Shown here: positions 23,028 through 55,542 of the stretch, in pieces
Layout: each line of letters opens with the position of its first letter
Position numbering within the stretch: position 1 is the first letter of the stretch
Assembly (NCBI RefSeq): GCF_000284095.1
Contig: NC_017078.1
Location: 124,001-188,000, forward strand
Direction of reading: 5' to 3'
Length of the DNA stretch: 64,000 nt
Source: Selenomonas ruminantium subsp. lactilytica TAM6421
GTDB lineage: Bacteria; Bacillota; Negativicutes; Selenomonadales; Selenomonadaceae
The notes under the pieces: model-generated
Seen by the model: the letters and a program-made list of their open reading frames with translations, nothing else
Databases searched by the model: none
What the model was told of the DNA's origin: nothing
Made by a program: the position numbers and the translations under genes

Positions 23028-23708
23028 TTGCGACTTCTGATTGCAGATGATAACAAGGATATTCGCGATATATTGGTTGCCGCAGCGGAAGCATCGGATT
23101 TTGAAACGGTGGCTGCCGCAAACGGTAAAGAGGTTTTAGACTTGGTAAAGCAGGACAATATTTCCCTGCTTTTATTGGATGTCATGATGCCAATAATGGA
23201 TGGTTTTTCCGTCTGTCGGGAGATACGAAAATCTTCGGATGTACCCATTATTATGATTACGGCCCGTGGCGAAGATTATGACCGGATCATGGGGCTGGAA
23301 ATCGGAGCTGACGACTATGTGGTGAAGCCATTTTCTCCTCTCGAAGTCATGGCCCGGGTGAAGGCCGTGCTCCGTCGTCTGCCCAAGGAGGAAATGGATA
23401 AAAGCAAAATTGCCGTGGGCAATCTTCTCCTGTTTAAGGATAATGGAGAAGTGCAGATAGGCGGCAAAGCCATTTCACTCACCCGCAAGGAATATGACTT
23501 GCTTTACCTGTTCCTCTCGCATCCGCAGCGGGTATTTTCCCGGGATGAATTATTGGACAGGCTTTGGGGCTATGAGTATACTGGCGACCTGCGGACCGTG
23601 GATACCCATATACGCCGCCTGCGGGCCAAACTTACTGAGGCTGGTCTGGCAGGCGCTGCTTTGACAACGGTATGGGGGCGTGGTTATCAGTGGGAGGGGA
23701 CGGAATGA
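23028..23708 (+). CDS. OmpR-family response regulator
   Basis: A 226-residue two-domain regulator. The receiver has acidic residues IADDNKD, phospho-acceptor Asp51 in LLLDVMMP and Lys100 in DYVVKPF. The C-terminal winged helix includes LTRKEYDLLYLFL and VDTHIRRLRAKL. The start is TTG at 23028, set by AGGAGG ending 8 bases upstream; the in-frame GTG at 23019 overlaps that box. The stop overlaps the kinase start by 4 bases. Confidence 0.9.
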   Translation: MRLLIADDNKDIRDILVAAAEASDFETVAAANGKEVLDLVKQDNISLLLLDVMMPIMDGFSVCREIRKSSDVPIIMITARGEDYDRIMGLEIGADDYVVKPFSPLEVMARVKAVLRRLPKEEMDKSKIAVGNLLLFKDNGEVQIGGKAISLTRKEYDLLYLFLSHPQRVFSRDELLDRLWGYEYTGDLRTVDTHIRRLRAKLTEAGLAGAALTTVWGRGYQWEGTE

Positions 23709-24323
23709 CGAAGCCCAGGAAACTTACCCGAAAGCTTTGGGGCTATTTTGCTTTATCGCTGCTGCTGTTTTCACTGCTGATCGGTATGGTATTCTCCTTC
23801 CTGTTTGTGGATTATAACAGCAAGGCACATCGCTCGGAAATGCAGCGGCAGGCCGAAACTCTGGCGGCGGCTTTGCCTGCTTTTCGAGGTCAGGATTTAT
23901 TGTGGACAGAGCAGACTGAAAATGACCAGAAGTCATCTCCTCAATATACTGGCCGTGGGGCACATCATGGGCGAATGATGCATGGAGGCAGAGGTTATTC
24001 TGTCCCAGGCAATCGGGAATGGTGCCGTCATAGCTATAGCCTGCAAGGTGGTGGGAATGCCAGTCGTGAACAGCAGACCGCCTCTTTTTTGCGGGACCTT
24101 GATAGGCTGGTGCAGGGAACTGTATGGATAGTCGACCGGGAAAGCCGTACAATCAGTTCCTATGGGCAAGAAAAAAATGTCATCACCTCGGGGCTACCAG
24201 CAGGTATGGAAGATGTCTTGGAGAAGACTTTGGCAGGAGACACTCCTGTAGTAGATACAAGTACAGACCTGTTTGCCGAACCTATGGTGACAGCAGGAGC
24301 ACCTATCTGGGGAGATAATGGGT
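23705..24323 (+). CDS. Sensor histidine kinase, 5' exon (periplasmic sensor part)
   Basis: The first 206 codons of a sensor kinase, translationally coupled to the response regulator (ATGA). It has a first membrane helix (LWGYFALSLLLFSLLIGMVF) and a periplasmic region with a His/Met/Gly-rich stretch (GAHHGRMMHGGRGY). The frame ends in the IStron: GGG at 24320-24322 is followed by TAA. The missing half resumes at 26911. Without splicing or excision the cell makes a truncated, kinase-less membrane protein. Confidence 0.85.
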
Positions 24324-24836
24324 AACAAAACTGTTACACTAAATTTACACAAATCTGTATAAATATATACAGAAGTATAGATTTAATCGAACAGAATACC
24401 CTTTGTATCTTGCAAGAGGTGCAAACTCAGTGTTAAATGCTTTTAATCCCTAAAGCCTTACACCCAAACAGTAGCTCGAAAGGGCAAGCTGAGTGGTGCG
24501 AAAGCAGAAAAAACGTAAGGATGGCATAAGGTGAAACAAAAATATATCAGTGTCGGATGAAGAAAATAGTGACCTTCCGAAAACGTATGTCCTAAGTGCT
24601 GAAAGCAATGGGTGTTTAGCAGGGAAAGCCCTAAGTTCTCAAAAGAGAATAAGGGAGACCCCCAACGACTATCTCCTTGAGGGAGAGTAAAACCGCAAGT
24701 TTATGGCGGAAGAAAAATACTGCCCCTGCCCAGCAGGGTGAAGATATAGTCTGCGCTGACATGAAAGTGTCAGAGGTCTGCTGGTGACAGCAAGACTGCG
24801 CTGGAAGTTGCGTTCTAGCGTGAACAAGATAAATGT
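24323..24836 (+). ncRNA. Group I self-splicing intron core (5' part of the IStron)
   Basis: The catalytic signature is clear: GACTA at 24667-24671 (P7 5' strand) and AAGATATAGTC at 24741-24751 (P7 3' strand plus conserved purines). CCTTAC (24456-24461) and GTAAGG (24515-24520) can form a P4-P6 domain stem; CTGACA/TGTCAG makes a P9 hairpin. At the 5' end, CTGTT/AACAG and the hairpin CTGTATA/TATACAG stack in a P1-P2 extension, bringing ACCC (24398-24401) opposite exon GGGU. The predicted 5' exon ends with U24323. The 3' splice site, G26910, lies beyond the protein genes. The structure was folded by eye. Confidence 0.85.
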
Positions 24837-24873: not shown

Positions 24874-24908
24874 ATAAGTGAAATATCTTATGTTAGGAGG
24901 TGGACGCT

Positions 24909-25541
24909 GTGGAACTGGTCAGCATAGGTAAATTTGCTAAGATGGTTGGTGTCACCACTACGACACTAAGGCGTATGCACCAAAGCGGAGATTTTATTCC
25001 GCACCATGTTACCAAGGGGGGCACACGCTATTACGCAATGGAACAGCTCAAGGAGTTTTCCAACGCTCCCGAAACAGAAAAGCTCGTAGTAGGTTACTGC
25101 CGAGTATCTACGCCAGCTCAAAAAGATGACCTTCAAACGCAGGTGGAGAACGTAAAGTCCTATATGTATGCCAAGGGTTATAAATTTGAGATAATCACGG
25201 ACGTAGGCTCAGGCATTAACTATAAAAAGAAAGGGCTACGGCAACTCGTCAACAAAATCAACAACCACGAGGTATCAACAGTAGTTATCCTGTACAAGGA
25301 CAGACTGATTCGCTTTGGCTATGAGTTGTTGGAGTATCTTTGTGAAATAAACGGTGTCAGTATCGAGATTATCGACAATACCGAGCAGAGCAAAGAGCAG
25401 GAACTGACGGATGACCTAATACAAATCATCACAGTTTTTGCTAACCGCCTTTACGGGCAACGCTCAAAGAAAACAAAGAGACTTATTGACGAGGTAAAGA
25501 AAAATGCAGAGAGCGGTAAAGATAAGGCTTCTGCCTACTAA
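24909..25541 (+). CDS. tnpA: IS607-family transposase (serine recombinase TnpA)
   Basis: A 210-residue protein with an N-terminal MerR-like helix-turn-helix (IGKFAKMVGVTTTTLRRMHQ) and a catalytic serine recombinase domain. The nucleophile is Ser67 in GYCRVST; YKDRLIRFG carries the active-site arginines. It cuts and rejoins at GG dinucleotides. The GTG at 24909 is preferred, 8 bases after AGGAGG; an in-frame GTG at 24900 overlaps that box. The 3' end overlaps tnpB by 38 bases in another frame. Confidence 0.92.
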   Translation: MELVSIGKFAKMVGVTTTTLRRMHQSGDFIPHHVTKGGTRYYAMEQLKEFSNAPETEKLVVGYCRVSTPAQKDDLQTQVENVKSYMYAKGYKFEIITDVGSGINYKKKGLRQLVNKINNHEVSTVVILYKDRLIRFGYELLEYLCEINGVSIEIIDNTEQSKEQELTDDLIQIITVFANRLYGQRSKKTKRLIDEVKKNAESGKDKASAY

Positions 25542-26697
25542 AGAGCAGGAGTGTCTGTTCTGGAAAAGTGCCGGGACTGCCCGTTGGGCATACAATTACT
25601 TTCTCGAAGCGAACGAAGCGGCCTACAAGGCATGGCTTAAAAATGACAAGGTCGGCAAGCGTAGCGTCAGCGAGGGCGAAATAAGGAAACACATCAACAA
25701 CGTCCTAAAGAAAACAACCCATACATGGCTCAAAGAGGTAGGAAGCAATGTAATGAAACAGGCTGTTAAGGACGCAAACCTGGCCTTGCAAAGATATTTC
25801 AAGGGCATATCTGGGAAACCTAAATTCAAGAGCCGTCATAGGAGCAAGATTAGTTTCTATGTGAACTACGAAAGCCTTGTGAGGAAGCCAAATGGCTTCC
25901 ATGGTGAGAAGATAGGTTTTGTGAAGACGGCGGCTCCCCTGCCTAAGATACCAAAAGGCAAGAAATATGCCAATCCGCATATATCCTTTGATGGCAGGTA
26001 TTGGTATCTGTCAGTTGGCTATGAAGTTCAGCAGGAAGAAACTGAGCTGACTGGCGGGAGTCTGGGCATAGACCTTGGTATTAAGTCGTTGGCGATTGTT
26101 TCTAACGAGGACGCTACAGAAACCCACTTCTACAAGAACATCAATAAGTCTGCGGAAGTAAGAAGGTTGGAAAAGAAGCTGAAGCGTGAGCAACGAAAGG
26201 CATCTCGCAAACTGGAATCAAATATCAAGAGCCACGACAAAAATCGCCATCCGATATGGATTCGCCCACTTCGAGAATGTAGGAACCTAGACAAGCAGAA
26301 CAAGAAAATACAGCTTATTCACAAACGCCTTACAGACATTCGCAACAATCATCTTCATCAGACAACATCTGAGATAGTGAAAACCAAGCCGTCACAGATA
26401 GTCATGGAGGATTTGAATGTCAAGGGCATGATGAAGAATAAGTACCTGTCAGAAGCTATCGCAAAACAAAAATTCTATGAGTTTAAGCGGCAGATTCAGT
26501 ACAAGGCTGAAATGTACGGCATAAAGGTCATAGAGGTAGACAGATTTTATGCAAGCTCCAAAACTTGCAGTCATTGCGGAAATGTCAAAAAGGACTTGAA
26601 GCTTTCAGACCGCATTTATGTCTGCCCTGTATGCGGAGCAAAGCTGGACAGGGATTTGAACGCTGCTATCAACTTAGCAAATTATAAGATGGCTTAG
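25504..26697 (+). CDS. tnpB: TnpB RNA-guided endonuclease of the IStron
   Basis: A 397-residue TnpB with an intact RuvC site: Asp190 in GIDLGIKS, Glu302 in IVMEDLNV and the Asp of LDRDLNAA (381-388). The zinc ribbon is C355/C358 and C374/C377. The family uses an omega RNA from the element's right end to cut sites that lack the element, which keeps the element from being lost. Nothing suggests inactivation. The start lies within tnpA, so translation is probably coupled. Confidence 0.93.
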   Translation: MQRAVKIRLLPTKEQECLFWKSAGTARWAYNYFLEANEAAYKAWLKNDKVGKRSVSEGEIRKHINNVLKKTTHTWLKEVGSNVMKQAVKDANLALQRYFKGISGKPKFKSRHRSKISFYVNYESLVRKPNGFHGEKIGFVKTAAPLPKIPKGKKYANPHISFDGRYWYLSVGYEVQQEETELTGGSLGIDLGIKSLAIVSNEDATETHFYKNINKSAEVRRLEKKLKREQRKASRKLESNIKSHDKNRHPIWIRPLRECRNLDKQNKKIQLIHKRLTDIRNNHLHQTTSEIVKTKPSQIVMEDLNVKGMMKNKYLSEAIAKQKFYEFKRQIQYKAEMYGIKVIEVDRFYASSKTCSHCGNVKKDLKLSDRIYVCPVCGAKLDRDLNAAINLANYKMA

Positions 26698-26910: not shown

Positions 26911-27890
26911 GGGCAGTGCTGGTACACAGACATCTTGCAGATTTGAAGGAAGCTGAAATTAGCGGATTGCAAATCCTGGGAATTGCAATCTTGTTGGGGC
27001 TTTTATTATCTGCCCTGCTGGCAGCTGCTCTGGCTAAGCGATTTATCGCTCCTCTCTATAGGATGAAGGACACCGCAGAAGCATTCCGGGCTGGAGACTA
27101 TCAGGCTCGCACGGGGCTGCATCAAAATGACGAGCTGGGGCTTTTAGCAGAAAGTCTGGATGAACTGGGGATGCGTCTGGAAGAAGCGAAAGCTGAGCGT
27201 GATAACGTCCAAAAGCAGCGTCAGGAATTTTTGGCGGCGGTATCCCATGAACTTCGTACACCGCTGACCGTCATCAAGGGAACCTGGGAACTTTTGGAGT
27301 CCGGGATAATAAAGGAAGGGGCAAAGCTTCAGGAATGCCGCCAGAGAATAGCGGAAAATCTCGCCATGCTGGAACGGCTGGTTCGCGACCTGTTGGAGCT
27401 GACCCGTTTGCAGAGCCCTGGATTTCAAGTACAGATGGAATCCTTGAACCTTTCGCAGCCCTTTGCCGATGCTATTCGCAGTGCGAATACGTTAGCAGAA
27501 AAGAAGGGGGTAAAGCTGGAAGCAGATCTGCCCCAGCTCGTGCCCTTTATGGGCGACTATGGCCGCCTGCGGCAGCTGTTGCTGATAATTCTGGACAACG
27601 CCATAAAATTTTCTCCGTCTGGAACTGCGGTGGATGTGCAGGGGCAGCTGACGGGAACTTTTTGGCAGATAAAAGTTACAGACCAGGGACCTGGCATTGC
27701 CCCGGAGGAACGGCTCCATATATTTGACCGCTTCAAGAAATCCGGCGAGGATAATGCCCAAGGAACTGGGCTAGGCCTGGCAATCGCCAGGGAAATTGCC
27801 ATACGTCACAATATCGAAATAAAATGTGAAAGTGAATTAGGCAAGGGAGCGGTATTTATCTTACAGGGGCAGATTGAACCTGCCATATAA
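26911..27890 (+). CDS. Sensor histidine kinase, 3' exon (HAMP and kinase core)
   Basis: The second part of the split kinase. Reading from VLVHRHLADLKEAE it has the second membrane helix (ILGIAILLGLLLSALLAAAL), HAMP, the phospho-acceptor box AAVSHELRTPLTVI, and the ATPase domain with N box DNAIKFSP, G1 DQGPGIAPEE and G2 GTGLGLAIA. It has no plausible start of its own (no ribosome site before the GTG at 26916), which supports a joined transcript. Confidence 0.88.
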
Positions 27891-36518: not shown

Positions 36519-36646
36519 ATTTTCAGATTGTCTTTGGTGGCAAAAAAATGATATTATGAGTTTGTGGAAAACTATGCCCATCCAATTATCGAGTGTGGGT
36601 AACAGTTATAGTGACGTAAGGCAAATCCAGAAAGGATTGTAAATTT

Positions 36647-37144
36647 ATGAATCAAGATGAGGTTACACGCCTGCAAAATATCGTCAAAAAGCTTCAGGCT
36701 GAGGATGGATGCCCCTGGGATAGAGTACAGACCCACGAGAGCATAAAAGCAGGTTGTATAGAAGAAGCATGTGAGGTACTGGCAGGCATCAATATCCTGA
36801 CGGAAACCGGCAAAGCGGATAACCTAAAGGAAGAACTGGGGGATTTGCTCCTGCAGGTTATCTTTCATGCCAATCTGGCAGAAAAAGAGGGGCTGTTCAA
36901 TCTGCAGGATGTGGCCCAGGCTGCTGCAGATAAGATGGTAAGACGGCACCCCCATGTATTTCATGATCCTATGCGGGGGAAAGATGGACAACCGGTTACA
37001 GACTGGGGAGAAATCAAGAAGCTGGAGAAAGAGGGGCGTGAGTGGGAAGAAGATTATCTGCCTGGTGCCCTGGTTGAAGGCCGGGAGCTCATCAACAAGG
37101 CTGCAAAACGCAAGGGTCTGTCCATGACGCCTGAAGGAGTATAA
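36647..37144 (+). CDS. mazG: MazG-type nucleoside triphosphate pyrophosphohydrolase
   Basis: A 165-residue single MazG domain, shorter than the two-domain E. coli protein. Motifs: GCPWDRVQTHESI, the EEACEV helix, EELGDLLLQVIFHA (metal-binding Glu/Asp) and KMVRRHPHVF. It hydrolyses non-canonical NTPs to NMPs. It ends 3 bases before a LacI-type regulator gene, so the two are coupled. Confidence 0.92.
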   Translation: MNQDEVTRLQNIVKKLQAEDGCPWDRVQTHESIKAGCIEEACEVLAGINILTETGKADNLKEELGDLLLQVIFHANLAEKEGLFNLQDVAQAAADKMVRRHPHVFHDPMRGKDGQPVTDWGEIKKLEKEGREWEEDYLPGALVEGRELINKAAKRKGLSMTPEGV

Positions 37145-37147
37145 TTT

Positions 37148-38122
37148 ATGGTCAGAATCAAGGATGTAGCCAGAGAGGCAGGAGTAGCTGCCAGCACGGT
37201 ATCTCTGGTAATGAATAAAAAGGGCTATGTATCGGAAGCCACCCGTGCCAAGGTAGAGGCTGCCATGAAAAAGCTCAATTATGTCCCCAGCGAGGTGGCC
37301 AGAAATCTTTCGCTGAATCGTACCAATACCATCGGTGTTATCCTGCCCTCCATATCCCATCCGTTCTTTGGCGAAGTGGTGGAAGCTTTGGAGGCAGCTC
37401 TTTATGAGCAGAATTACAAGATGATGCTTTGCTGTACCCAGCACAAGGAAAACGCAGAGCGTACCTTTGTGGAAATGCTGAAACGGCGGACCATGGATGG
37501 CATTATCATGGGAGCCCATTCTTTGGATGTTTCCCTCTATGATAACATCAAGCAGCCCATTGTGGCCTTTGACCGCTTTTTGAATGAGGATATTCCCATC
37601 GTCCATTGCGACCACCAGCAGGGAGGAAGGATGGCAGCGGAGGCCCTTTTGAACCAAGGGTGCAGGCATGTGGTGGAGATTGTGGGCTATCAGGGGGTGA
37701 GCACTCCTGCCAATGAATACCACTTTATGGCGGCGGATATTCTCCAGACCCATGGAGCTACGGTTCATATGCTGGAAATGCCTTGGAATGCCTTTACCTA
37801 CAGCGATTTCATGGACGCCGCCCGGGAACTTTTTCAGAAATATCCTGAGGCGGATGGGATTTGGGGTGCGGACCTGGCCATTTCGGCCTGTCTGAATGTA
37901 GCCGTCTCTGTGGGCAGGAAAGTGCCGGAAGACCTGAAGCTCGTTGCTTATGATGGCACGGCTGTTACCCGGATGGGGCCCCAGCCCATTACGGCAGTAC
38001 GCCAGCCCATCGAGGGCCTTTGCCGTCTGGCCGTACAGAAAATCATTCACATGGTTAATGAAGAGCAGGATGACAGTCCCTGGGTACTGCCGCCTGCCAT
38101 GTTGAAAGGTGAAACCTGTTGA
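37148..38122 (+). CDS. LacI-family regulator of fructan/sucrose locus 1
   Basis: A 324-residue repressor. The helix-turn-helix is IKDVAREAGVAASTVSLVMN and the hinge helix YVPSEVARNLS; the sugar-binding core follows. It is a close paralogue of the regulator at 48.83 kb (both share TMDGIIMGAHSLD) but differs in the recognition helix (AASTVSLVMN against SVGTVSMVLN). Two operators downstream of it precede the GH32 gene. Confidence 0.9.
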   Translation: MVRIKDVAREAGVAASTVSLVMNKKGYVSEATRAKVEAAMKKLNYVPSEVARNLSLNRTNTIGVILPSISHPFFGEVVEALEAALYEQNYKMMLCCTQHKENAERTFVEMLKRRTMDGIIMGAHSLDVSLYDNIKQPIVAFDRFLNEDIPIVHCDHQQGGRMAAEALLNQGCRHVVEIVGYQGVSTPANEYHFMAADILQTHGATVHMLEMPWNAFTYSDFMDAARELFQKYPEADGIWGADLAISACLNVAVSVGRKVPEDLKLVAYDGTAVTRMGPQPITAVRQPIEGLCRLAVQKIIHMVNEEQDDSPWVLPPAMLKGETC

Positions 38123-38200
38123 TTCGGTTTCCTCTTGTTTTGTGATTTTTTTTTCGGAAGAGCACTGATAAATTCTCATTGTTCCACTATTATAAATATA

Positions 38201-38259
38201 TCGAACCGATTTGATATTGGCTCGATTTTCTAAAAGCCTTATGTCGAACCGATTCGATA
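38201..38259 (+). promoter_or_regulatory. Two LacI-type operators upstream of GH32 copy 1
   Basis: TCGAACCGATTTGATA at 38201-38216 and TCGAACCGATTCGATA at 38244-38259, both with a central CG as in LacI-family sites. A possible -10 (TATAAA near 38191) lies just upstream, so bound repressor would block initiation and elongation. Confidence 0.75.
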
Positions 38260-38276
38260 GAGATGGGGGATTGAAA

Positions 38277-39665
38277 ATGCAAGAAGTAATGAAGGTAACG
38301 GACCAGCGTTACCGCCTGGGTTATCACTTGATGACCAAAGGGGGATGGATGAATGACTCCAATGGTTTTCCCTGGTTCAAAGGGTATTATCACATGTTTT
38401 ACCAATATTATCCCTATGCTGCCGAATGGGGTCCTATGCACTGGGGACATGCCCGCAGCAAGGATTTGGTACATTGGGAAACACTGCCGGTGGCTCTGGC
38501 CCCGGATGAGCATGAGGATGGCTGCTTCTCCGGCAGTGCTGTGGTTTATGATGACAAGCTCTGGCTGATTTATACGGGACACCATCTCACCAATCCCGAG
38601 GACAGCGAGGAATTCTATCAGGACCAGAATATTGCCTGGTCCGAAGACGGAATCCACTTTACCAAGTATGAAGGCAATCCGGTACTGCGGGCTCCGGCGG
38701 ACAACACCAAACATTTCCGGAACCCAAAAGTCTGGCAGGAAGGTGATATCTTTTATATGGTGCTGGGCAGTCAGGGCAGCGATGAGCTGGGACGTGCTCT
38801 TCTCTACGAATCGAATGACTTAAAAAAATGGCAGCTTGTTTCCGTGCTGGACAAGGCAATGAATCTGAAGGATGAAGGTTACATGTGGGAATGTCCGGAT
38901 TTCTTCCATTTGGACGGTCAGGATGTGCTGCTCATGTCGCCCCGGGGGCTGGAACCGCAGGGAGACTGCTTTCATAATCTCAACCAGACCTGCTACCTGC
39001 TGGGGCAGCAGGATGAAGAGAATTATCTGGTTCGTCAGGAATTTACGGAAATCGACCGGGGGCATGATTTTTACGCCACCCAGACCATGCTCGCTCCGGA
39101 TGGCCGGAGAATCATGACTGCCTGGATGAATGCCTGGGACTCGCCCATGTATGAAAAAGAGGACGGCTGGGCAGGAGCTCTTACAATTCCCAGAGAATTG
39201 CGGATTGAAAAGGGACGTCTCTATCAGAAGCCTGTGTCGGAACTATCCTCCATGCGTTTGCATCGCGTGCTGGACGGGGGGCTGGTTCCGGAAAGTAGCA
39301 TTTCACTTCCTGCTGCCTCCGAGATAAAGCTGTTATTCAAAGATTGTGGTGATTTCAGCGGCAGATTGCTGAAGATTGGCGACGGCGGGCAGGAGCTGTC
39401 CATATCCTTGGATGCGGAAGGCAGCCGCATCCTGGTAGAGCGTACCACCAAAGATGGTTTGCGGGCAGCGAAAATCATGCCCTACAAGGATTTGGACCTG
39501 CATATCTTCGTGGACAGAAGCTCTGCGGAAATCTTTGTAAACCGAGGGGAAATAACCTTTACCGAGCGTATGTACTGGCAGGGGAAATTGGAACTTTCCC
39601 TGGGAGAAAAGGCCGTCAGGGAGGCTTGTATTTACGCTTTGGAAAAGGAAACCAATCAATACTGA
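38277..39665 (+). CDS. Cytosolic GH32 protein with altered active site (locus 1)
   Basis: A 462-residue GH32 protein (beta-fructosidase or sucrose hydrolase type) without a signal peptide: five-bladed propeller then beta sandwich. The nucleophile Asp27 sits in WMNDSNG (usually WMNDPNG) and the acid Glu205 in MWECPDF is intact. The transition-state aspartate of the RDP motif is Asn149 (HFRNPKVW), while the paralogue at 49.99 kb has HFRDPKVW. Loss of that residue strongly reduces activity in the family, so this copy may be inactive or have another role. It is followed by its MFS permease gene. Confidence 0.88.
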   Translation: MQEVMKVTDQRYRLGYHLMTKGGWMNDSNGFPWFKGYYHMFYQYYPYAAEWGPMHWGHARSKDLVHWETLPVALAPDEHEDGCFSGSAVVYDDKLWLIYTGHHLTNPEDSEEFYQDQNIAWSEDGIHFTKYEGNPVLRAPADNTKHFRNPKVWQEGDIFYMVLGSQGSDELGRALLYESNDLKKWQLVSVLDKAMNLKDEGYMWECPDFFHLDGQDVLLMSPRGLEPQGDCFHNLNQTCYLLGQQDEENYLVRQEFTEIDRGHDFYATQTMLAPDGRRIMTAWMNAWDSPMYEKEDGWAGALTIPRELRIEKGRLYQKPVSELSSMRLHRVLDGGLVPESSISLPAASEIKLLFKDCGDFSGRLLKIGDGGQELSISLDAEGSRILVERTTKDGLRAAKIMPYKDLDLHIFVDRSSAEIFVNRGEITFTERMYWQGKLELSLGEKAVREACIYALEKETNQY

Positions 39666-39699
39666 CAGACGAAAGGTCATGAATTAGGGGGATTATATC

Positions 39700-40983
39700 A
39701 TGAAATTTCTGCAAGACTTTAGCAATCCGTTTTATCGGATGGGTTCCTTGCAAATTATGCTGTTCTTTGGGGGCTGGGGCATCTGGTGGTCCTTCTTCCA
39801 GATTTGGCTGACCACCAAGCAGGGATTTTCCGGGACCCAGGTGGGCACCATCTTTTCCTTTGGCTCTGCGGCGGCTCTTCTGCTGATGTTTGTCTATGGT
39901 TCCATTCAGGATAAGCTAGGCATGAAGAAACACCTTCTCATTGCCCTGATTGCCTGTCAGGTTTTCCTGGCTCCTTTCTTCACCTGGGTATATGTGCCCA
40001 TGTTGGAAGCAAACTTTTATCTGGGGGCTGTAGTGGGAGCTGTATATCTGGCTGTTTCGTATCTGGCTGCCTGCCCGGTTTTTGAGGCAGTCACTGAGCG
40101 TATGAGCCGCCGCTTTCACTTTGAATACGGTCAGGCAAGAGCCTGGGGTTCCTTTGGCTATGCTATCTCTGCCCTGGCTGCCGGTTTTCTTTTCACGGTA
40201 AACCCCTATCTGGTCTTTTGGACCGGTTCTGCTGTTTCTACGGTGCTGCTTCTTACCCTGCTTTTTATGAAGCCGGAAAAGAAAGAGGAAAACCTGGCCC
40301 GCTTCGAGGATAAGAGCGAAAGCCAGAAGGACAGCAAGACGCCTACCATGAAGGATATTCTGGGTGTTTTCAAGATTGCAGACCTTTGGAAAATCATTGG
40401 CTTTGTCATGATGAGCTGGACTTTTTACACGGTCTTTGACCAGCAAATGTTCCCGGAATTCTTCACCCGCTTCTTTGATACCCCGGAGCAGGGCCAGCAG
40501 GCCTATGGGGTGCTGAATTCCATTGAAGTCTTCCTGGAATTTCTCATGATGGGGTTGGTGCCTGTCTTCATGAAGAGAATCGGTGTGCGGAAAGCCATTC
40601 TGCTGAGTTGCTGCATCATGATTCTTCGTATTGGCGGCTGCGGGCTGGCCAGCAGCCCCCTGGGTGTGGGCATTATCAAATTGCTGCATGCTCCGGAAAC
40701 GGCGCTGTTCATCCTGGCTATTTTCCGCTATTTCACCCTGCATTTTGACACCCGCATTTCTGCCACCCTCTACATGGTGGGCTTCCAGATTGCAGCCCAG
40801 ATTGGTCAGATTATCTTCTCTGCTCCCCTGGGGGCTCTTCATGACCAGATTGGCTATCAGCAGACCTTCCTGGTGATTTCCGGCATCGTCTGCGTGGCCA
40901 GCCTCTATGCCTTCGTCGTTCTCCGCAAGGATGACCAATGCGTGGAAGGACAGCCGCTGGAGTTGGAAGCAGTAGCTGAATAA
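39700..40983 (+). CDS. MFS oligosaccharide/sucrose permease (locus 1)
   Basis: A 427-residue, 12-helix transporter of the oligosaccharide:H+ symporter group (LacY/CscB-like). Typical is FFGGWGIWWSFFQIWLTTKQ in helix 1 and the loop 2-3 motif GSIQDKLGMKKH. It is about 70 percent identical by eye to the copy at 51.39 kb. It brings in the sugar for the neighbouring GH32 enzyme. Confidence 0.88.
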   Translation: MKFLQDFSNPFYRMGSLQIMLFFGGWGIWWSFFQIWLTTKQGFSGTQVGTIFSFGSAAALLLMFVYGSIQDKLGMKKHLLIALIACQVFLAPFFTWVYVPMLEANFYLGAVVGAVYLAVSYLAACPVFEAVTERMSRRFHFEYGQARAWGSFGYAISALAAGFLFTVNPYLVFWTGSAVSTVLLLTLLFMKPEKKEENLARFEDKSESQKDSKTPTMKDILGVFKIADLWKIIGFVMMSWTFYTVFDQQMFPEFFTRFFDTPEQGQQAYGVLNSIEVFLEFLMMGLVPVFMKRIGVRKAILLSCCIMILRIGGCGLASSPLGVGIIKLLHAPETALFILAIFRYFTLHFDTRISATLYMVGFQIAAQIGQIIFSAPLGALHDQIGYQQTFLVISGIVCVASLYAFVVLRKDDQCVEGQPLELEAVAE

Positions 40984-41003
40984 GCAAAACTGAAGAAATG
41001 TCA

Positions 41004-41067: not shown

Positions 41068-41901
41068 CTATTCCTGAAAATTTTCTCTCAGCAGAGAAAT
41101 TTCCTGGGCATAGCCGGGAAGTTCATTGGGTGTCTCCAGGATAAAGGGGAGATTTCTCAGCTTTGGATGGTTGATGACCCTTGTCAGTGCGTCAAGGCCA
41201 ATGCAGCCTTTACCAATGCAGGCATGGCGGTCTTTGTGAGAGCCGCAGGGATTCAGGCTGTCGTTGAGGTGGATGGCTTTTAGCCGTTCAAGGCCGATAA
41301 TGCGGTCAAACTCTTCCAGTACGCCCTCCAGGTCATTGACGATATCATAACCGCCATCCCAGATATGGCATGTGTCCAGGCAGATACCGAGCTTGTCCTG
41401 CAGTTCCACCTGGTCCATGATTTCCCGCAGTTCATCGAAGGTCCGTCCAATTTCGGTGCCTTTTCCTGCCATGGTTTCCAGAAGTACCGTAGTGGATTGG
41501 GAAGGGGTGAGGACACGGTTAAGCTCTGCGGCAATCAAGTCAATACCGGCTTTGCTTCCCTGTCCCACATGGCTGCCGGGGTGGAAATTGTAGTAGTTCC
41601 CCGGTGTGGCTTCCATACGCTGCAGGTCATCAACCAGCATCTCATGAGCAAAGGTGCGTATATTGTCTTTGGCGGCACATAAGTTCATGGTGTAGGGAGC
41701 ATGGGCCACCAGTTTGGTAAAATGATGCTCCTCCGCAAAATCTGTAAAGGTTTGCACGTCAGCAGGGTCAATATTCTTGGCTTTGCCGCCACGAGGATTG
41801 CGGGTAAAGAAGGCAAAGGTGTCGGCCTTGATGCTGACCGCATCCTTTCCCATGGCAAGATAGCCCTTGGCAGACGATAGATGGCATCCGATGTGAAGCA
41901 T
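41068..41901 (-). CDS. nfo: Endonuclease IV (AP endonuclease)
   Basis: A 277-residue zinc enzyme that nicks DNA at abasic sites. Metal and active-site motifs: [68 protein letters not shown] and ILETPNE. A damaged second copy lies at 30.06 kb. Single gene on the minus strand. Confidence 0.95.
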
Positions 41902-48720: not shown

Positions 48721-48824
48721 TTTGAAAAATGTAACTGACTTAGGGAGTAAAATCTTTTCTTTACTGGACGCTGACAGCAATAAAAGGTAAAATAGACGTA
48801 TTGATTATAGGGAGGCGTGGCAAT

Positions 48825-49799
48825 ATGGCTAAGATACGGGATGTGGCGAAGGAGGCCGGGGTGTCTGTAGGAACAGTTTCCATGGTGCTCAATCATGCAG
48901 ATTATGGTTCACCGCAGATTCGGAAAAAGGTGGAAGATGCGGTGGAGAAACTGCAGTATGTGCCCAGCGAGATGGCTCGCAATCTATCGCTCAAGCGTAC
49001 CATGACGGTGGGGGTTATCGTACCCACCGTAGCCCATCCCTTTTTTGCCGAACTAGTGGAGGCGCTAGAGGAAGCCTTGTTCCATTTGGGCTATAAGACC
49101 ATGCTCTGCTGTACCCGGCAAAAGGAGAATGCGGAGCAAGCCTTTATTGAAATGTTGAAGCGTCAGACTATGGATGGCATCATTATGGGGGCACATTCCC
49201 TGGATACTTCGCTTTATCAGAATCTGAAGCAGCCAATTATTGCCTTTGACCGTTATTTAAGTCCCGAGATTCCCATCGTACATGCTGACCATAGGTTGGG
49301 GGGCAGGCTGGCAGCGGAGGCCTTTTTGCAGCATGACTGCCATCATATCGTGGAAATCGCCGGCTCTCAGATGGTTAAAACCCCGGCGGGGGAATACCAT
49401 CAGGTATTCAATGAAGTCATGGAAGCTTATGGTGTGCGTACGGATACCGTCTCTCTGCCTTGGAACAGTTTCGGAGGCTTGGATTCCCTGCAATTGGCGG
49501 AAAAGATTTTTGCGGATTACAGGGATGTGGACGGTATCCTGGGATCGGATTTGTCGGTGCTCAGCTGCCTGCAGGTGGCTGTGCAGCGGGGAATCAGGGT
49601 GCCGGAGCAGCTGAAGATCGTGGCCTATGATGGTACCTTGATTACGCAAAACGGCGCTTGCAGGTTGACAGCCGTACGTCAGCCCATTGCCGAGCTGGCT
49701 GAACTGGCGGCTAGAAAGATCGTCGGTCTTATAAGTGGCAAGCCGGACAATTCGCCCTGGGTGCTGCCGCCAACCTTACTGGCAGGAGAAACTTGTTGA
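48825..49799 (+). CDS. LacI-family regulator of fructan/sucrose locus 2
   Basis: A 324-residue repressor with helix-turn-helix IRDVAKEAGVSVGTVSMVLN and hinge YVPSEMARNLS. It resembles the regulator at 37.15 kb over its whole length. GGGAGG lies before ATG 48825. The adjacent operon has two TGAAMCGGTTCA operators at its promoter, and a further pair lies at its far end, so the regulon is visible on both sides. Confidence 0.9.
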   Translation: MAKIRDVAKEAGVSVGTVSMVLNHADYGSPQIRKKVEDAVEKLQYVPSEMARNLSLKRTMTVGVIVPTVAHPFFAELVEALEEALFHLGYKTMLCCTRQKENAEQAFIEMLKRQTMDGIIMGAHSLDTSLYQNLKQPIIAFDRYLSPEIPIVHADHRLGGRLAAEAFLQHDCHHIVEIAGSQMVKTPAGEYHQVFNEVMEAYGVRTDTVSLPWNSFGGLDSLQLAEKIFADYRDVDGILGSDLSVLSCLQVAVQRGIRVPEQLKIVAYDGTLITQNGACRLTAVRQPIAELAELAARKIVGLISGKPDNSPWVLPPTLLAGETC

Positions 49800-49880: not shown

Positions 49881-49940
49881 TTGACAATCGAAGAAAATAC
49901 GTCTAAAATACTTTTTGAACCGGTTCACTGAAACGGTTCA
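49881..49940 (+). promoter_or_regulatory. Promoter with two LacI-type operators (locus 2)
   Basis: TTGACA 49881-49886 and TAAAAT 49904-49909, spacing 17. Directly downstream lie the perfect 12-bp palindrome TGAACCGGTTCA (49916-49927) and TGAAACGGTTCA (49929-49940). Confidence 0.85.
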
Positions 49941-49987
49941 AAAATAATAAATAAGTCAATCAGGATAAAACAAGGGAGAGCATGTTT

Positions 49988-51364
49988 ATGAAAGAACCTA
50001 TAGCAATCACGAATCAGCGGTATCGTCTGGGGTATCATGTAATGACTCCGGGAGGCTGGATGAATGATCCCAATGGTTTTTCTTTTTTCAAAGGCTGGTA
50101 TCATATATTTTACCAGTATTATCCTTATGCAGCGGAATGGGGGCCCATGCATTGGGGCCATGCTCGCAGCCGGGATCTGGTGCATTGGGAGACGTTGCCC
50201 ACAGCTCTGACGCCGGACGAAAACGAGAATGGCTGCTTCTCAGGCAGTGCCGTGGTCTATGATGACAAGCTGTGGCTGATCTACACGGGCCATCATACGC
50301 CTAACGCTGTGGATCCGGAAGATTTCTATCAGGATCAGCGGGTGGCTTGGAGTGAGGATGGCATTCATTTCACGAAGTATGGAGCCAATCCGGTGCTGAA
50401 GACACCGACAGACAATACGAAGCATTTCCGTGATCCGAAGGTCTGGCAGGAAGGAGATACTTTCTTCATGGTACTGGGCAGTCAGGATTTGGATGGACTG
50501 GGCCGGGCACTGATCTATCGTTCTAAGGATCTTTTGCACTGGCAGCCGGAGACGGAACTCAGCAAGTCCGTGGACAGGAAAGTGGAAGGCTATATGTGGG
50601 AATGTCCTGATTTCTTCCATCTGGATGGCAAGGATGTCCTGTTGATGTCCCCCCAGGGGCTGGAGGCCGACGGCGACCGCTTCCGCAATCTGAACCAGAC
50701 GGGCTATCTGCTGGGGAATATAGAGGATAAGAAACTCAAGCATCAGGGCTTTGTGGAAATCGACCATGGTCATGATTTCTATGCCGCTCAGACCATGCTG
50801 ACGCCGGATGGCCGGCGGGTGATGATTGCCTGGATGAACGCCTGGGATTCCCCCATGCCGGAGATTGAAGACGGCTGGGCCGGGGCGCTGACAGTGCCAA
50901 GAGAACTTTCCGTCAAGGACGGCCTGATCATGCAAAAGCCGATCAATGAACTCAAGGGCTTGCGGCAGGAGGTTTTGCTGGCAGGCGGGCTGGAAACGGA
51001 GCGGGATTATCATCTGGGCCGTTTGGCAGAACTGGAATTGACCTTTACGGATAAGCCGGAAGGGCGGCTTCTGTTGCTGACGGACGGGATCAGGAGTCTG
51101 CAGCTGAGCCTGGAACCTGGCGGACGCTTTATCGTAAGCCGCAATACTGAAGATGGGGAACGGGCTGCGGTACTGCGAAACTTTGAGCAGCTGAAGCTGC
51201 AGATCTTTATCGACAGGAGCTCAGCAGAGGTGTTCGTCAATGACGGCGAACTGACCTTTACAGAGCGCATCTACTGGCAGAGTGATGTGACCTGCCGCCT
51301 GCTGGCTGAGGCTGGCAATCAGGCTCAGGTATGGCGGCTGGAGAGTGAAAGCAATCAGTATTGA
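49988..51364 (+). CDS. Cytosolic GH32 beta-fructosidase / sucrose hydrolase (locus 2)
   Basis: A 458-residue GH32 enzyme, cytosolic (no signal peptide). All three active-site motifs are intact: WMNDPNG (nucleophile Asp27), HFRDPKVW (Asp149) and MWECPDF (acid Glu205). It cleaves sucrose or short fructo-oligosaccharides brought in by the next gene's product. The ATG at 49988 sits 9 bases after GGGAG; an earlier ATG at 49982 is only 3 bases away. The pair with an H+ symporter resembles non-PTS sucrose systems (CscA/CscB). Confidence 0.92.
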   Translation: MKEPIAITNQRYRLGYHVMTPGGWMNDPNGFSFFKGWYHIFYQYYPYAAEWGPMHWGHARSRDLVHWETLPTALTPDENENGCFSGSAVVYDDKLWLIYTGHHTPNAVDPEDFYQDQRVAWSEDGIHFTKYGANPVLKTPTDNTKHFRDPKVWQEGDTFFMVLGSQDLDGLGRALIYRSKDLLHWQPETELSKSVDRKVEGYMWECPDFFHLDGKDVLLMSPQGLEADGDRFRNLNQTGYLLGNIEDKKLKHQGFVEIDHGHDFYAAQTMLTPDGRRVMIAWMNAWDSPMPEIEDGWAGALTVPRELSVKDGLIMQKPINELKGLRQEVLLAGGLETERDYHLGRLAELELTFTDKPEGRLLLLTDGIRSLQLSLEPGGRFIVSRNTEDGERAAVLRNFEQLKLQIFIDRSSAEVFVNDGELTFTERIYWQSDVTCRLLAEAGNQAQVWRLESESNQY

Positions 51365-51392: not shown

Positions 51393-52667
51393 ATGCAAAA
51401 TATCTTGATGAAGGCTTTACGCAATCCGTTTTATCGGGCAGGCTCGCTGGAAATTCTTTTGTTCTTTGCGGGCTGGGGGATCTGGTGGTCCTTTTTCCAA
51501 ATCTGGCTGACCACGAAGCAGGGCTTTACAGGAGCTCAGGTGGGCACCATCTATACCTTCGGTTCGGCGGTGGCTCTGGTGCTGATGTTTGTCTATGGTT
51601 CATTGCAGGATAAGTTGGGTCTCAAGAAACATCTGCTTATGTTTATGGTGGGCTGTCAGGTGCTGTTGGCACCGTTCTTCACCTGGGTTTATGTGCCTAT
51701 GCTGGCCGCGAATTTCTATGTGGGGGCCATGGTGGGGGCTGTGTATCTGTCTGTGGCCTATCTGGCTGCCTGCCCCGTGTTTGAGGCGGTGACGGAACGG
51801 CTCAGCCGCCGTTACAGTTTCGAATATGGTCAGGCCCGGGCCTGGGGTTCTCTGGGCTATGCCATGTCGGCACTGGCCGCAGGTTTCCTCTTTACCATCA
51901 ATCCCTATCTGGTGTTCTGGACCGGTTCTGCCGTATCGGCGGTGCTGCTGGCCATCCTGTTGTTGCTGAAGCCGGAAAATAAAGAAGCCAATGTGCAGGC
52001 CTATGAGAACAGCGAGGAGCGGGACAAGGCGGTGAAGTCTCCGTCTCTTAAGGAAATCATCAGCGTCTTCGGCATCTTTGACCTTTGGAAGATCATCATC
52101 TTTGTCATCCTTAGCTGGACTTTCTACACCGTTTTTGACCAGCAGATGTTCCCGGAATTCTTTACCCGGTTCTTCCCCACGCCGGAGGAAGGTCAGCAGG
52201 CTTATGGTATCCTGAATTCCGTGCAGGTATTTCTGGAGTTCCTGATGATGGGGCTGGTGCCAATCTTGATGCGAAAGATTGGCGTGCGCCATGCTTTGCT
52301 GTTAGGCTGTGTTATCATGGTCTGCCGTATTGGTGGTTGCGGCCTGGCCTCCACGCCGCTGGGCATTGGCCTGATCAAACTCCTGCATGCCCCGGAAACG
52401 GCCCTCTTTGTTCTGGCCATCTTCCGTTATTTCACCTTGCATTTCGATACCCGCGTATCGGCTACCCTCTATATGGTCGGCTTCCAGATTGCAGCTTCTG
52501 TCGGCGGTATTATCTTCTCTGTGCCGCTGGGCAGCCTGCGTGACAACATTGGTTATCAGAGCACTTTCCTGATCATTGCAGGCATTGTCCTGTGTGCCAC
52601 GTTTTATGCGTTCTTTATGCTGAAAAAGGACGATAAGGATGTGGCTGGTCAGCCGCTGGAAGCTTGA
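51393..52667 (+). CDS. MFS oligosaccharide/sucrose permease (locus 2)
   Basis: A 424-residue, 12-helix H+ symporter, paralogous to the one at 39.70 kb (FAGWGIWWSFFQIWLTTKQG; GSLQDKLGLKKH; HFDTRVSATLYMVGFQIA). Twenty-eight bases separate it from the GH32 gene and 28 bases from the porin gene, in one operon. Confidence 0.9.
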   Translation: MQNILMKALRNPFYRAGSLEILLFFAGWGIWWSFFQIWLTTKQGFTGAQVGTIYTFGSAVALVLMFVYGSLQDKLGLKKHLLMFMVGCQVLLAPFFTWVYVPMLAANFYVGAMVGAVYLSVAYLAACPVFEAVTERLSRRYSFEYGQARAWGSLGYAMSALAAGFLFTINPYLVFWTGSAVSAVLLAILLLLKPENKEANVQAYENSEERDKAVKSPSLKEIISVFGIFDLWKIIIFVILSWTFYTVFDQQMFPEFFTRFFPTPEEGQQAYGILNSVQVFLEFLMMGLVPILMRKIGVRHALLLGCVIMVCRIGGCGLASTPLGIGLIKLLHAPETALFVLAIFRYFTLHFDTRVSATLYMVGFQIAASVGGIIFSVPLGSLRDNIGYQSTFLIIAGIVLCATFYAFFMLKKDDKDVAGQPLEA

Positions 52668-54069: not shown

Positions 54070-55542
54070 ATGAAAAAACAGATTCTGGCAGCCTTGCTGG
54101 CCGCTTCCAGCCTTTGCCTGAACAGCTCTCCAGCACTGGCTTATCCATCGATTTTCCCCAATACAGGTTACAGCTGGGTGGGGGATACCATGCCCTTTTA
54201 CGATGGGCAGCAGTTCCGGATCTTCTATCTGGAGGATCTGCGTGACGGAGATGTGGGATTCCACCCCTGGAGCCTTTTTACCACCAAGGATTTTACGGAT
54301 TACCATCATGACAGTCTGGTCATTCCCTATGACAATACGAATGAGTTTGCCAAGGATTCGGCGCTGGGCACGGGCTCGGTGGTGCAGGACAAGGATGGGC
54401 TTTACCATGCTTTCTACACCGGTTTCAATTGGCGCAGCATGCCCAAGGAGAACATCATGCATGCGGTCAGCCGTGATCTGGTGAGCTGGCAGAAATTGCC
54501 CGAGGACAGTTTCCATGGCAGTAAGCCATATATCTACGATGACACCTTCCGGGATCCCAATGTGTTCTACAATGCAGACTATGACGAGTACTGGATGCTT
54601 ATCACCACCCGCAGCAAAAAGGCTCGGGGCGTGATTGCCCGTTATACATCCAAGGATCTCAAGCATTGGGAAGATAAGGGCATCTTCTTTGAGAACGATA
54701 TGGGCAGCGATGCCAATATGGAATGCCCAACACTGGTGAAATATGGCGATTACTGGTATCTGACCTTCTCGGATCAGTGGCCGGCCCGGGTGGTGCATTA
54801 CCGTGTGGCCAAGGATTCCCAGGGGCCCTTCATGAAGCCTGAGCGGGATTATTTTGACGCCAGCGGCTTCTATGCTGGGAAACTGGCTCAGGATAAGGAA
54901 AATCTCTATTTGGTGGGCTGGACACCCACCAAGGCCGACCAGCAGGACAAGTGCCCCACGGATTGGGCGGGCAATCTCGTGGCCCATCAGCTCAAGCAGC
55001 GGGAAGATGGTACTCTTTATCCGGTACCAGTGGAAAAAGTTACGGAACGATTGCAGCAGGAAGTAGTGCTTACGCCGCTGACAAAGAACGGAGACGTGAC
55101 TACAGCGGGCCACGATTATCGCTTTGGCGGACAGGGCTTTGCGAATGTGGTGATGCACAAGATGGAAGGCATCCGCAAGATTACAGGGCGCTTTACCCCT
55201 GACAGTCAGCAGGGAAAATTCGGCCTGATGTTCAATGTGGGGCCCAATCAGACCGGTTCACTGAATCTGGTATTTGACCAGAAAGCACAACAGGTGGCTT
55301 TCTATAATACGGATACCACCAGCATAAATAAGGCCAATCCGGAACTGTCTGTACCGGTCAGCCTGCAGTCAGGCGAAAGCTATGACTTTACCCTGCTCAT
55401 AGATGGTACGGTGGCCGTACTCTATATCAATGATCAGATGGCCCTGAGCACTCGCATGTATGGTCTGCCGGAGCATCAGTGGGGGATTTTCTCCACGGGC
55501 AGTGCAGTCACTTTGACCAATCTGCGCAGCAGTACACTTTAA
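54070..55542 (+). CDS. Exported GH32-type beta-fructosidase (levanase/inulinase-like)
   Basis: A 490-residue precursor with signal peptide (ILAALLAASSLCLNSSPALA), so it acts in the periplasm or outside. The catalytic triad of clan GH-J is recognisable although the first motif differs from cytosolic GH32: SWVGDTMPFY (Asp39), TFRDPNVFY (Asp162) and ANMECPTLV (Glu218). The C-terminal 150 residues form a beta-sandwich. It should release small sugars from fructan for the porin and permease. Hydrolase against fructotransferase action cannot be decided. Confidence 0.85.
   Translation: MKKQILAALLAASSLCLNSSPALAYPSIFPNTGYSWVGDTMPFYDGQQFRIFYLEDLRDGDVGFHPWSLFTTKDFTDYHHDSLVIPYDNTNEFAKDSALGTGSVVQDKDGLYHAFYTGFNWRSMPKENIMHAVSRDLVSWQKLPEDSFHGSKPYIYDDTFRDPNVFYNADYDEYWMLITTRSKKARGVIARYTSKDLKHWEDKGIFFENDMGSDANMECPTLVKYGDYWYLTFSDQWPARVVHYRVAKDSQGPFMKPERDYFDASGFYAGKLAQDKENLYLVGWTPTKADQQDKCPTDWAGNLVAHQLKQREDGTLYPVPVEKVTERLQQEVVLTPLTKNGDVTTAGHDYRFGGQGFANVVMHKMEGIRKITGRFTPDSQQGKFGLMFNVGPNQTGSLNLVFDQKAQQVAFYNTDTTSINKANPELSVPVSLQSGESYDFTLLIDGTVAVLYINDQMALSTRMYGLPEHQWGIFSTGSAVTLTNLRSSTL

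Follow-up and report, generated by a model that had tools for sequence, protein, structure and literature searches.

An altered GH32 gene in a redundant operon of Selenomonas ruminantium: a probable case of early loss of function

Does a GH32 gene whose reading frame is open but whose active-site motifs have changed still encode a working enzyme, has its product been kept for some other purpose, or is the gene being lost? The question is raised by positions 38277-39665 (forward strand) of the window analyzed here, a 64,000-nucleotide stretch of Selenomonas ruminantium subsp. lactilytica TAM6421 (NC_017078.1, positions 124,001 to 188,000). A first-pass annotation had described the gene as a GH32 paralogue with RDP changed to RNP, and had suggested either early decay or a role in binding or sensing. 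Our analysis favors, with a rough probability of 0.62, a redundant and probably acquired beta-fructofuranosidase operon in early loss of function.

Profile matches place the gene among the ScrB-type beta-fructofuranosidases of GH32: it matches Pfam PF00251 and PF08244 and the NCBIfam family scrB_fam, and scores 437.3 bits against the ScrB profile TIGR01322 (cut-off 356.4), with residues 4-434 aligned to positions 5-446 of the 447 in the profile. The protein is probably cytoplasmic. As first described, the frame is otherwise intact; it runs uninterrupted from the ATG at 38277 to the stop at 39663-39665, encoding 462 amino acids, and carries none of the marks of a pseudogene (internal stop, frameshift or truncation). 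The nucleophile Asp27 (in WMND) and the acid/base Glu205 (in WECPD) are unaltered, and both are invariant in a 16-sequence alignment. The aspartate of RDP, the transition-state stabilizer, is absent: codon 149 (38721-38723) is AAC, for Asn, giving HFRNPKVW. Codon 28 (38358-38360) is TCC, for Ser, giving WMNDSNG in place of WMNDPNG, so that both motif changes in the first-pass annotation are borne out. The predicted structure (mean pLDDT 87.4 from a 16-row alignment, below 50 at residues 1-13 and 289-297) has 7bwb as its best match in the PDB (TM 0.90), and the 50 PDB matches listed are GH32-type structures; judging by this model, the protein should still fold.

How unusual these changes are can be judged from an alignment of the query with 28 other GH32 proteins, made up of 27 same-family copies (among them the product of the sister gene in the same window) and one from Ligilactobacillus; the 27 were drawn from 29 other close copies, with the truncated L019 and L069 omitted. 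Pro28 is present in all 28, and so is Asp149. The query alone differs at five of the 192 columns in which all the other sequences agree, namely P28S, S32P (codon 32, CCC, 38370-38372), D149N (GAC in the nearest relatives), Q223R (codon 223, CGG, 38943-38945) and G239C (codon 239, TGC, 38991-38993), each being a one-base substitution relative to the nearest relatives. Five private changes are not an exceptional count: L068 also has five, L039 has nine, the other 26 have none to three, and L066 has 11 in a smaller set. In a wider alignment of 16 sequences, with identity down to 35%, only P28 and D149 among the five sites are conserved in all 15 other rows; at positions 239 and 223 a distant homologue, L041, carries Cys and Met, respectively. 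Two of the five private changes lie at the 62 positions conserved in this wider set, against about 1.6 expected by chance, a rough figure that combines two different alignments (the 62 positions and the 192 invariant columns). The changes therefore do not appear to be specially aimed at the catalytic site, and random loss fits better than redesign.

Motif scans were also made. In one of them every other frame with an R[D/N]P match has RDP, and L021 gave no match to that expression. Across 398 sampled genomes of the phylum, the degenerate expression FRNP-[K/Y/N]-[V/I/M]-W gave four matches, the query included; the other three, considered as natural precedents for RNP, were rejected as chance matches in open stretches of only 10, 51 and 27 codons. 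The RDP version matched in 20 of the 398 genomes, at 21 places; nine of the ten places read lie in frames that also carry the remaining GH32 motifs, the exception being L100. Both scans must be considered noisy, since the backward controls gave four hits in each (RNP and RDP). No natural RNP variant of GH32 was found in the literature searched, by searches that came only partly near that question.

The first-pass annotation had also noted continued control of the gene by an operator. Two LacI-type operators (38200-38226 and 38243-38258, forward strand) are indeed kept, as are the -10 hexamer TATTAT (38188-38193), at a 17-base spacing as in the nearest relatives, and the ribosome site GGGGGA; there is hardly any change in the -10 or in the operators. 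However, this clue is incomplete because the -35 hexamer, which the earlier reading did not mention, is broken. It reads CTGATA (38165-38170), with two of six bases changed, while a perfect TTGACA with a 17-base spacer is present in 26 of the 26 relatives read, sister operon included. This survey took the best -35/-10 pair near an operator in 36 fetched loci. Besides the query, 34 gave TTGACA-17 (25 distinct clusters, nine being second fetches of the same genes), and the 36th, L063, escaped the operator expression and reads by eye TTGACA-17-TATTAT; the survey omitted L016, L019, L069, L039, L041 and the more distant L043-L045. Losing two of the six -35 bases should weaken transcription from a sigma-70 promoter, and transcription from the CTGATA promoter should, on that basis, be weak. 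As a separate observation, operator half-sites differ between the two clusters of the window (38200-38258 versus 49915-49941), the query type and its neighbors having TCGAACCGAT or TCGAACCGGT and the sister type TTGAACCGGT; L064 also has CTGAACCGAT.

The sister operon lies downstream on the same strand and consists of a LacI gene (LacI2, 48801-49799), a promoter TTGACA-17-TAAAAT (49881-49909), a GH32 gene (49982-51364) and a gene for a LacY-family permease (MFS2, 51393-52667). Its GH32 product, which shares 65% identity with the query, keeps WMNDPNG and RDP, as the first reading had it, and ECPD as well, so the operon is unaltered in both its GH32 motifs and its promoter. A third GH32 match in this genome (G000; 3.63 Mb in 10 contigs) is distant (34%) and lies on another contig. 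It should be noted that the window also encodes a GH32-like protein at 54070-55542 (forward strand), 3' of the sister operon and of a gene that is porin-like by eye only, with no Pfam match. This protein has a signal-like start (by eye), a BT1760-like C-terminal domain, FRDP and ECP motifs, and SWVGDTMPFYDG at the expected place of NDPNG; counterparts with 81-84% identity also follow sister-type operons in L037, L038 and L040.

The query operon itself comprises a LacI-family repressor gene (LacI1, 37148-38122; Pfam LacI and Peripla_BP), the GH32 gene and a gene for a LacY-family (oligosaccharide:H+) permease (MFS1, 39700-40983; Pfam LacY_symp, NCBIfam galactoside permease), all on the forward strand. 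Its four nearest clusters belong to genus g22, with identities of 82-85% for LacI, 79-80% for GH32 and 91% for the permease, compared with 56-59%, 63-67% and 74-78% between the two cluster types. Trees join the query cluster with g22 (separating support 100 for LacI, 100 for GH32 and 79 for the permease). In the four g22 genomes, three of which are by matching coordinates Selenomonas ruminantium or Selenomonas sp. MAGs, this type is the only close copy and is unaltered. A match at E <= 1e-150 was found in 29 of the 189 family genomes, and two such copies only in G000; six relatives searched whole each have one close and one distant (32-34%) GH32 copy. Because all three genes of the cluster group with another genus, and G000 alone has two close copies, these comparisons suggest that the operon is probably a second copy acquired from a related genus and not an in-genome duplicate, differential loss being a conceivable alternative. 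The word paralogue in the first-pass annotation is thus probably inexact.

Insertion boundaries, sought through the MazG and Nfo neighbors in 11 MazG and 5 Nfo loci with flanks of about 1.5 kb, were not found; in the loci fetched from relatives, neither gene lies beside the cluster or beside the other. No orthologue was found in viral contigs with the peptide patterns used, and no plasmid covered 80% of 36600-41000, with 403 records matching parts of it at 60-80% identity.

Several other features of this neighborhood and of the related loci were recorded. A MazG-domain gene (36647-37144) ends three bases before LacI1; by eye, LacI1 lacks a separate promoter, and its transcription may continue from MazG. 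The segment 30069-30431 is an internally deleted remnant of the endonuclease IV-like gene (AP_endonuc_2) whose unbroken form lies at 41068-41901, about 11 kb away, and similar remnants occur in G015. A sensor histidine kinase gene (23672-24325 and 26916-27890) appears to be split by an IS607-type element (transposase 24900-25541, TnpB 25504-26697). Its 3' piece has HAMP, HisKA and HATPase_c domains, and the split is a reading by eye, since neither Pfam nor NCBIfam gave a match for the 5' piece, which adjoins a response-regulator-like frame. In Selenomonas ruminis mPRGC5 (L038, 2831-3802), a lone LacI gene directly precedes a LacI2-type operon; its product is 65% identical to LacI1 and 56% to LacI2, and it is possibly what is left of a cluster of the other type that has been lost. 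The permease gene beside an unaltered GH32 gene in genome G042 (L063, 2899-3335) seems to lack its middle (residues about 6-30 and 272-421 match and the remainder does not), and G011 (88% complete, 120 contigs) has a close copy and a 25-residue match to query residues 2-26 (68%), possibly a fragment of a second copy.

When the loss would have begun can be approached from codon change. A branch model with eight taxa and the topology of the protein tree gave the query GH32 branch an omega of 0.084 versus 0.068 elsewhere (2dlnL 0.70, dS about 0.87), and a profile over fixed values placed its upper 95% limit just under 0.13. Omega is higher on the branch of the unaltered L032 (0.176, 2dlnL 9.4), and lower on that of the sister gene (0.053, 2dlnL 0.79). 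Acceleration specific to GH32 was rejected, the query GH32 being no faster than unaltered orthologues. Omega on the query branch has not moved toward 1 as under relaxed selection, and by rough arithmetic at most about 6-7% of the branch could have been neutral, if the remainder ran at the background rate. Long-standing decay is thus rejected and any loss must be recent, and with so little time elapsed the unbroken frame is not strong evidence for function. The low omega is two-edged, since besides excluding old decay it is what a protein with a continuing function would show. The query permease branch has a raised omega (0.12 versus 0.023, 2dlnL 13.1, with fixed values below about 0.045 disfavored by the profile). 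This points toward relaxation, but we set it aside because its dS of 0.26 disagrees with those of the neighboring genes (0.87 and 1.17) and because the excess in pairwise counts is no more than mild.

Based on these data we can present a rough proposal. An extra LacI-GH32-permease operon would have arrived, probably from a related genus, in a genome that already held an unaltered operon of the same kind, and in this redundant setting it would recently have begun to lose function, by changes that we infer to be neutral. With the -35 lost, even release of the repressor would give little transcription. The enzyme has been hit at several invariant residues, including the transition-state aspartate (D149N) and the residue beside the nucleophile (P28S), and hydrolysis of sucrose or fructo-oligosaccharides is predicted to be poor or absent. 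The cause of the finding is then probably an ordinary one. Of what the first-pass annotation offered, early decay is the part that the redundant copy, the private changes and the lost -35 favor, with the qualification that the decay is not old and that we infer the loss of catalysis. Against early loss stand the unbroken ORF, the low omega and the retention of the -10, both operators and the ribosome site.

An alternative is that the enzyme still works, perhaps more slowly or in an altered way (more transfer, or another substrate), in an operon tuned down by selection, which we consider the strongest of the alternatives, though an unlikely one. The frame, nucleophile, acid/base, operators and -10 are all kept, and omega is low over the whole query branch. 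Furthermore, a short neutral period would predict fewer than two changes in a box of six bases, so the -35 may have been tuned and not lost by drift. On the other side, D149N occurs in none of the 28 relatives and is accompanied by P28S, S32P, Q223R and G239C; the same Asp to Asn change in the levansucrase LsdA (GH68), D309N, is reported in the title of a 1999 paper by Batista to affect sucrose hydrolysis. PMC3360783 describes a model of an Arabidopsis invertase in which the RDP aspartate contacts O3 and O4 of fructose through two hydrogen bonds. In the reading of a working enzyme, an asparagine at 149 could hydrogen-bond these atoms. Published mutants at this residue run from inactive to more active than wild type. 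SacB D247A has no catalytic activity, although its active site is otherwise little changed (PMC2277421), and Aspergillus japonicus D191A is inactive as cited in PMC5877544, where an Arthrobacter globiformis mutant is cited as showing no obvious decrease. BmSUC1 D181A was reported to be about twice as efficient as wild type, with lower heat stability (PMC5877544), a result to which we give limited weight because kcat, at 0.02 per second, is very low. With so wide a range, sequence alone leaves a loss of activity in the query unproven; the fairest forecast by analogy is an activity that is reduced, not necessarily to zero, and that P28S, next to the nucleophile, perhaps lowers further.

A pseudoenzyme retained to bind or regulate, as a sugar buffer, a partner of the repressor or a modulator of the sister enzyme, seems to us improbable, and less credible than an enzyme that still works. 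The catalytic aspartate has changed in a protein that should still fold, omega is low, and the plant protein Nin88 offers a precedent (PMC3713406). However, this is a single private copy behind a weakened promoter, with no clade of such variants among the copies examined, the triad of the plant proteins is never affected according to that paper, so the precedent differs, and we found no positive support for the binding or sensory role first suggested. It would be a long shot that purifying selection maintains a triad-altered GH32 at deliberately low expression for a non-hydrolytic job, as a sugar-binding or regulatory partner of the unaltered sister enzyme; if true, a bacterium would have a defective invertase with an altered triad, which sets it apart from those of plants. 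Least credible of all is an artefact of sequencing, assembly or culture at 38721-38723 and 38358-38360: each change is a single base and an error at 38721 alone is possible, but seven changes (five coding and two in the -35) within 830 bases, without a frameshift, in an assembly that is 100% complete with 1.55% contamination, make an all-error reading unlikely.

If early loss of a redundant operon is the right explanation, the locus would be a snapshot of that process, with frame, repressor and operators kept and promoter and active site hit. The gene also offers a natural test of the need for the RDP aspartate in GH32, on which published mutants disagree, and the family-level name "sucrose-6-phosphate hydrolase" would miss the active-site change.

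Among known systems, the nearest published parallel found is the defective invertases of plants, for example tobacco Nin88 (PMC3713406), which are likewise GH32 proteins with poor sucrose hydrolysis, presumed for the query, alongside active relatives. By the rule stated there, the plant proteins have lost the Asp/Lys(Arg) couple or a Trp and kept the triad; because their triad is never affected in that account, and the triad of the query is itself changed, the query would not be a defective invertase of the plant type. Nin88 is also described there as a regulator, whereas the query stands alone as a private copy whose promoter is weakened. SacB D247A (PMC2277421) and BmSUC1 D181A (PMC5877544) are changed at the residue corresponding to D149, but they are otherwise unaltered laboratory mutants whose reported outcomes conflict, and LsdA D309N has the very Asp to Asn change of the query. 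With the ScrB-type GH32 enzymes (TIGR01322; nearest solved structure BmSUC1, PDB 7bwb) the query shares profile, fold, WMND and ECPD, and it differs in having RNP for RDP and NDSNG for NDPNG. Finally, redundant horizontally acquired operons in early decay are second copies with hits in both promoter and coding sequence while the other copy is unaltered. Compared with these, the query operon still has an open frame and its operators, which would place it at an early stage at most.
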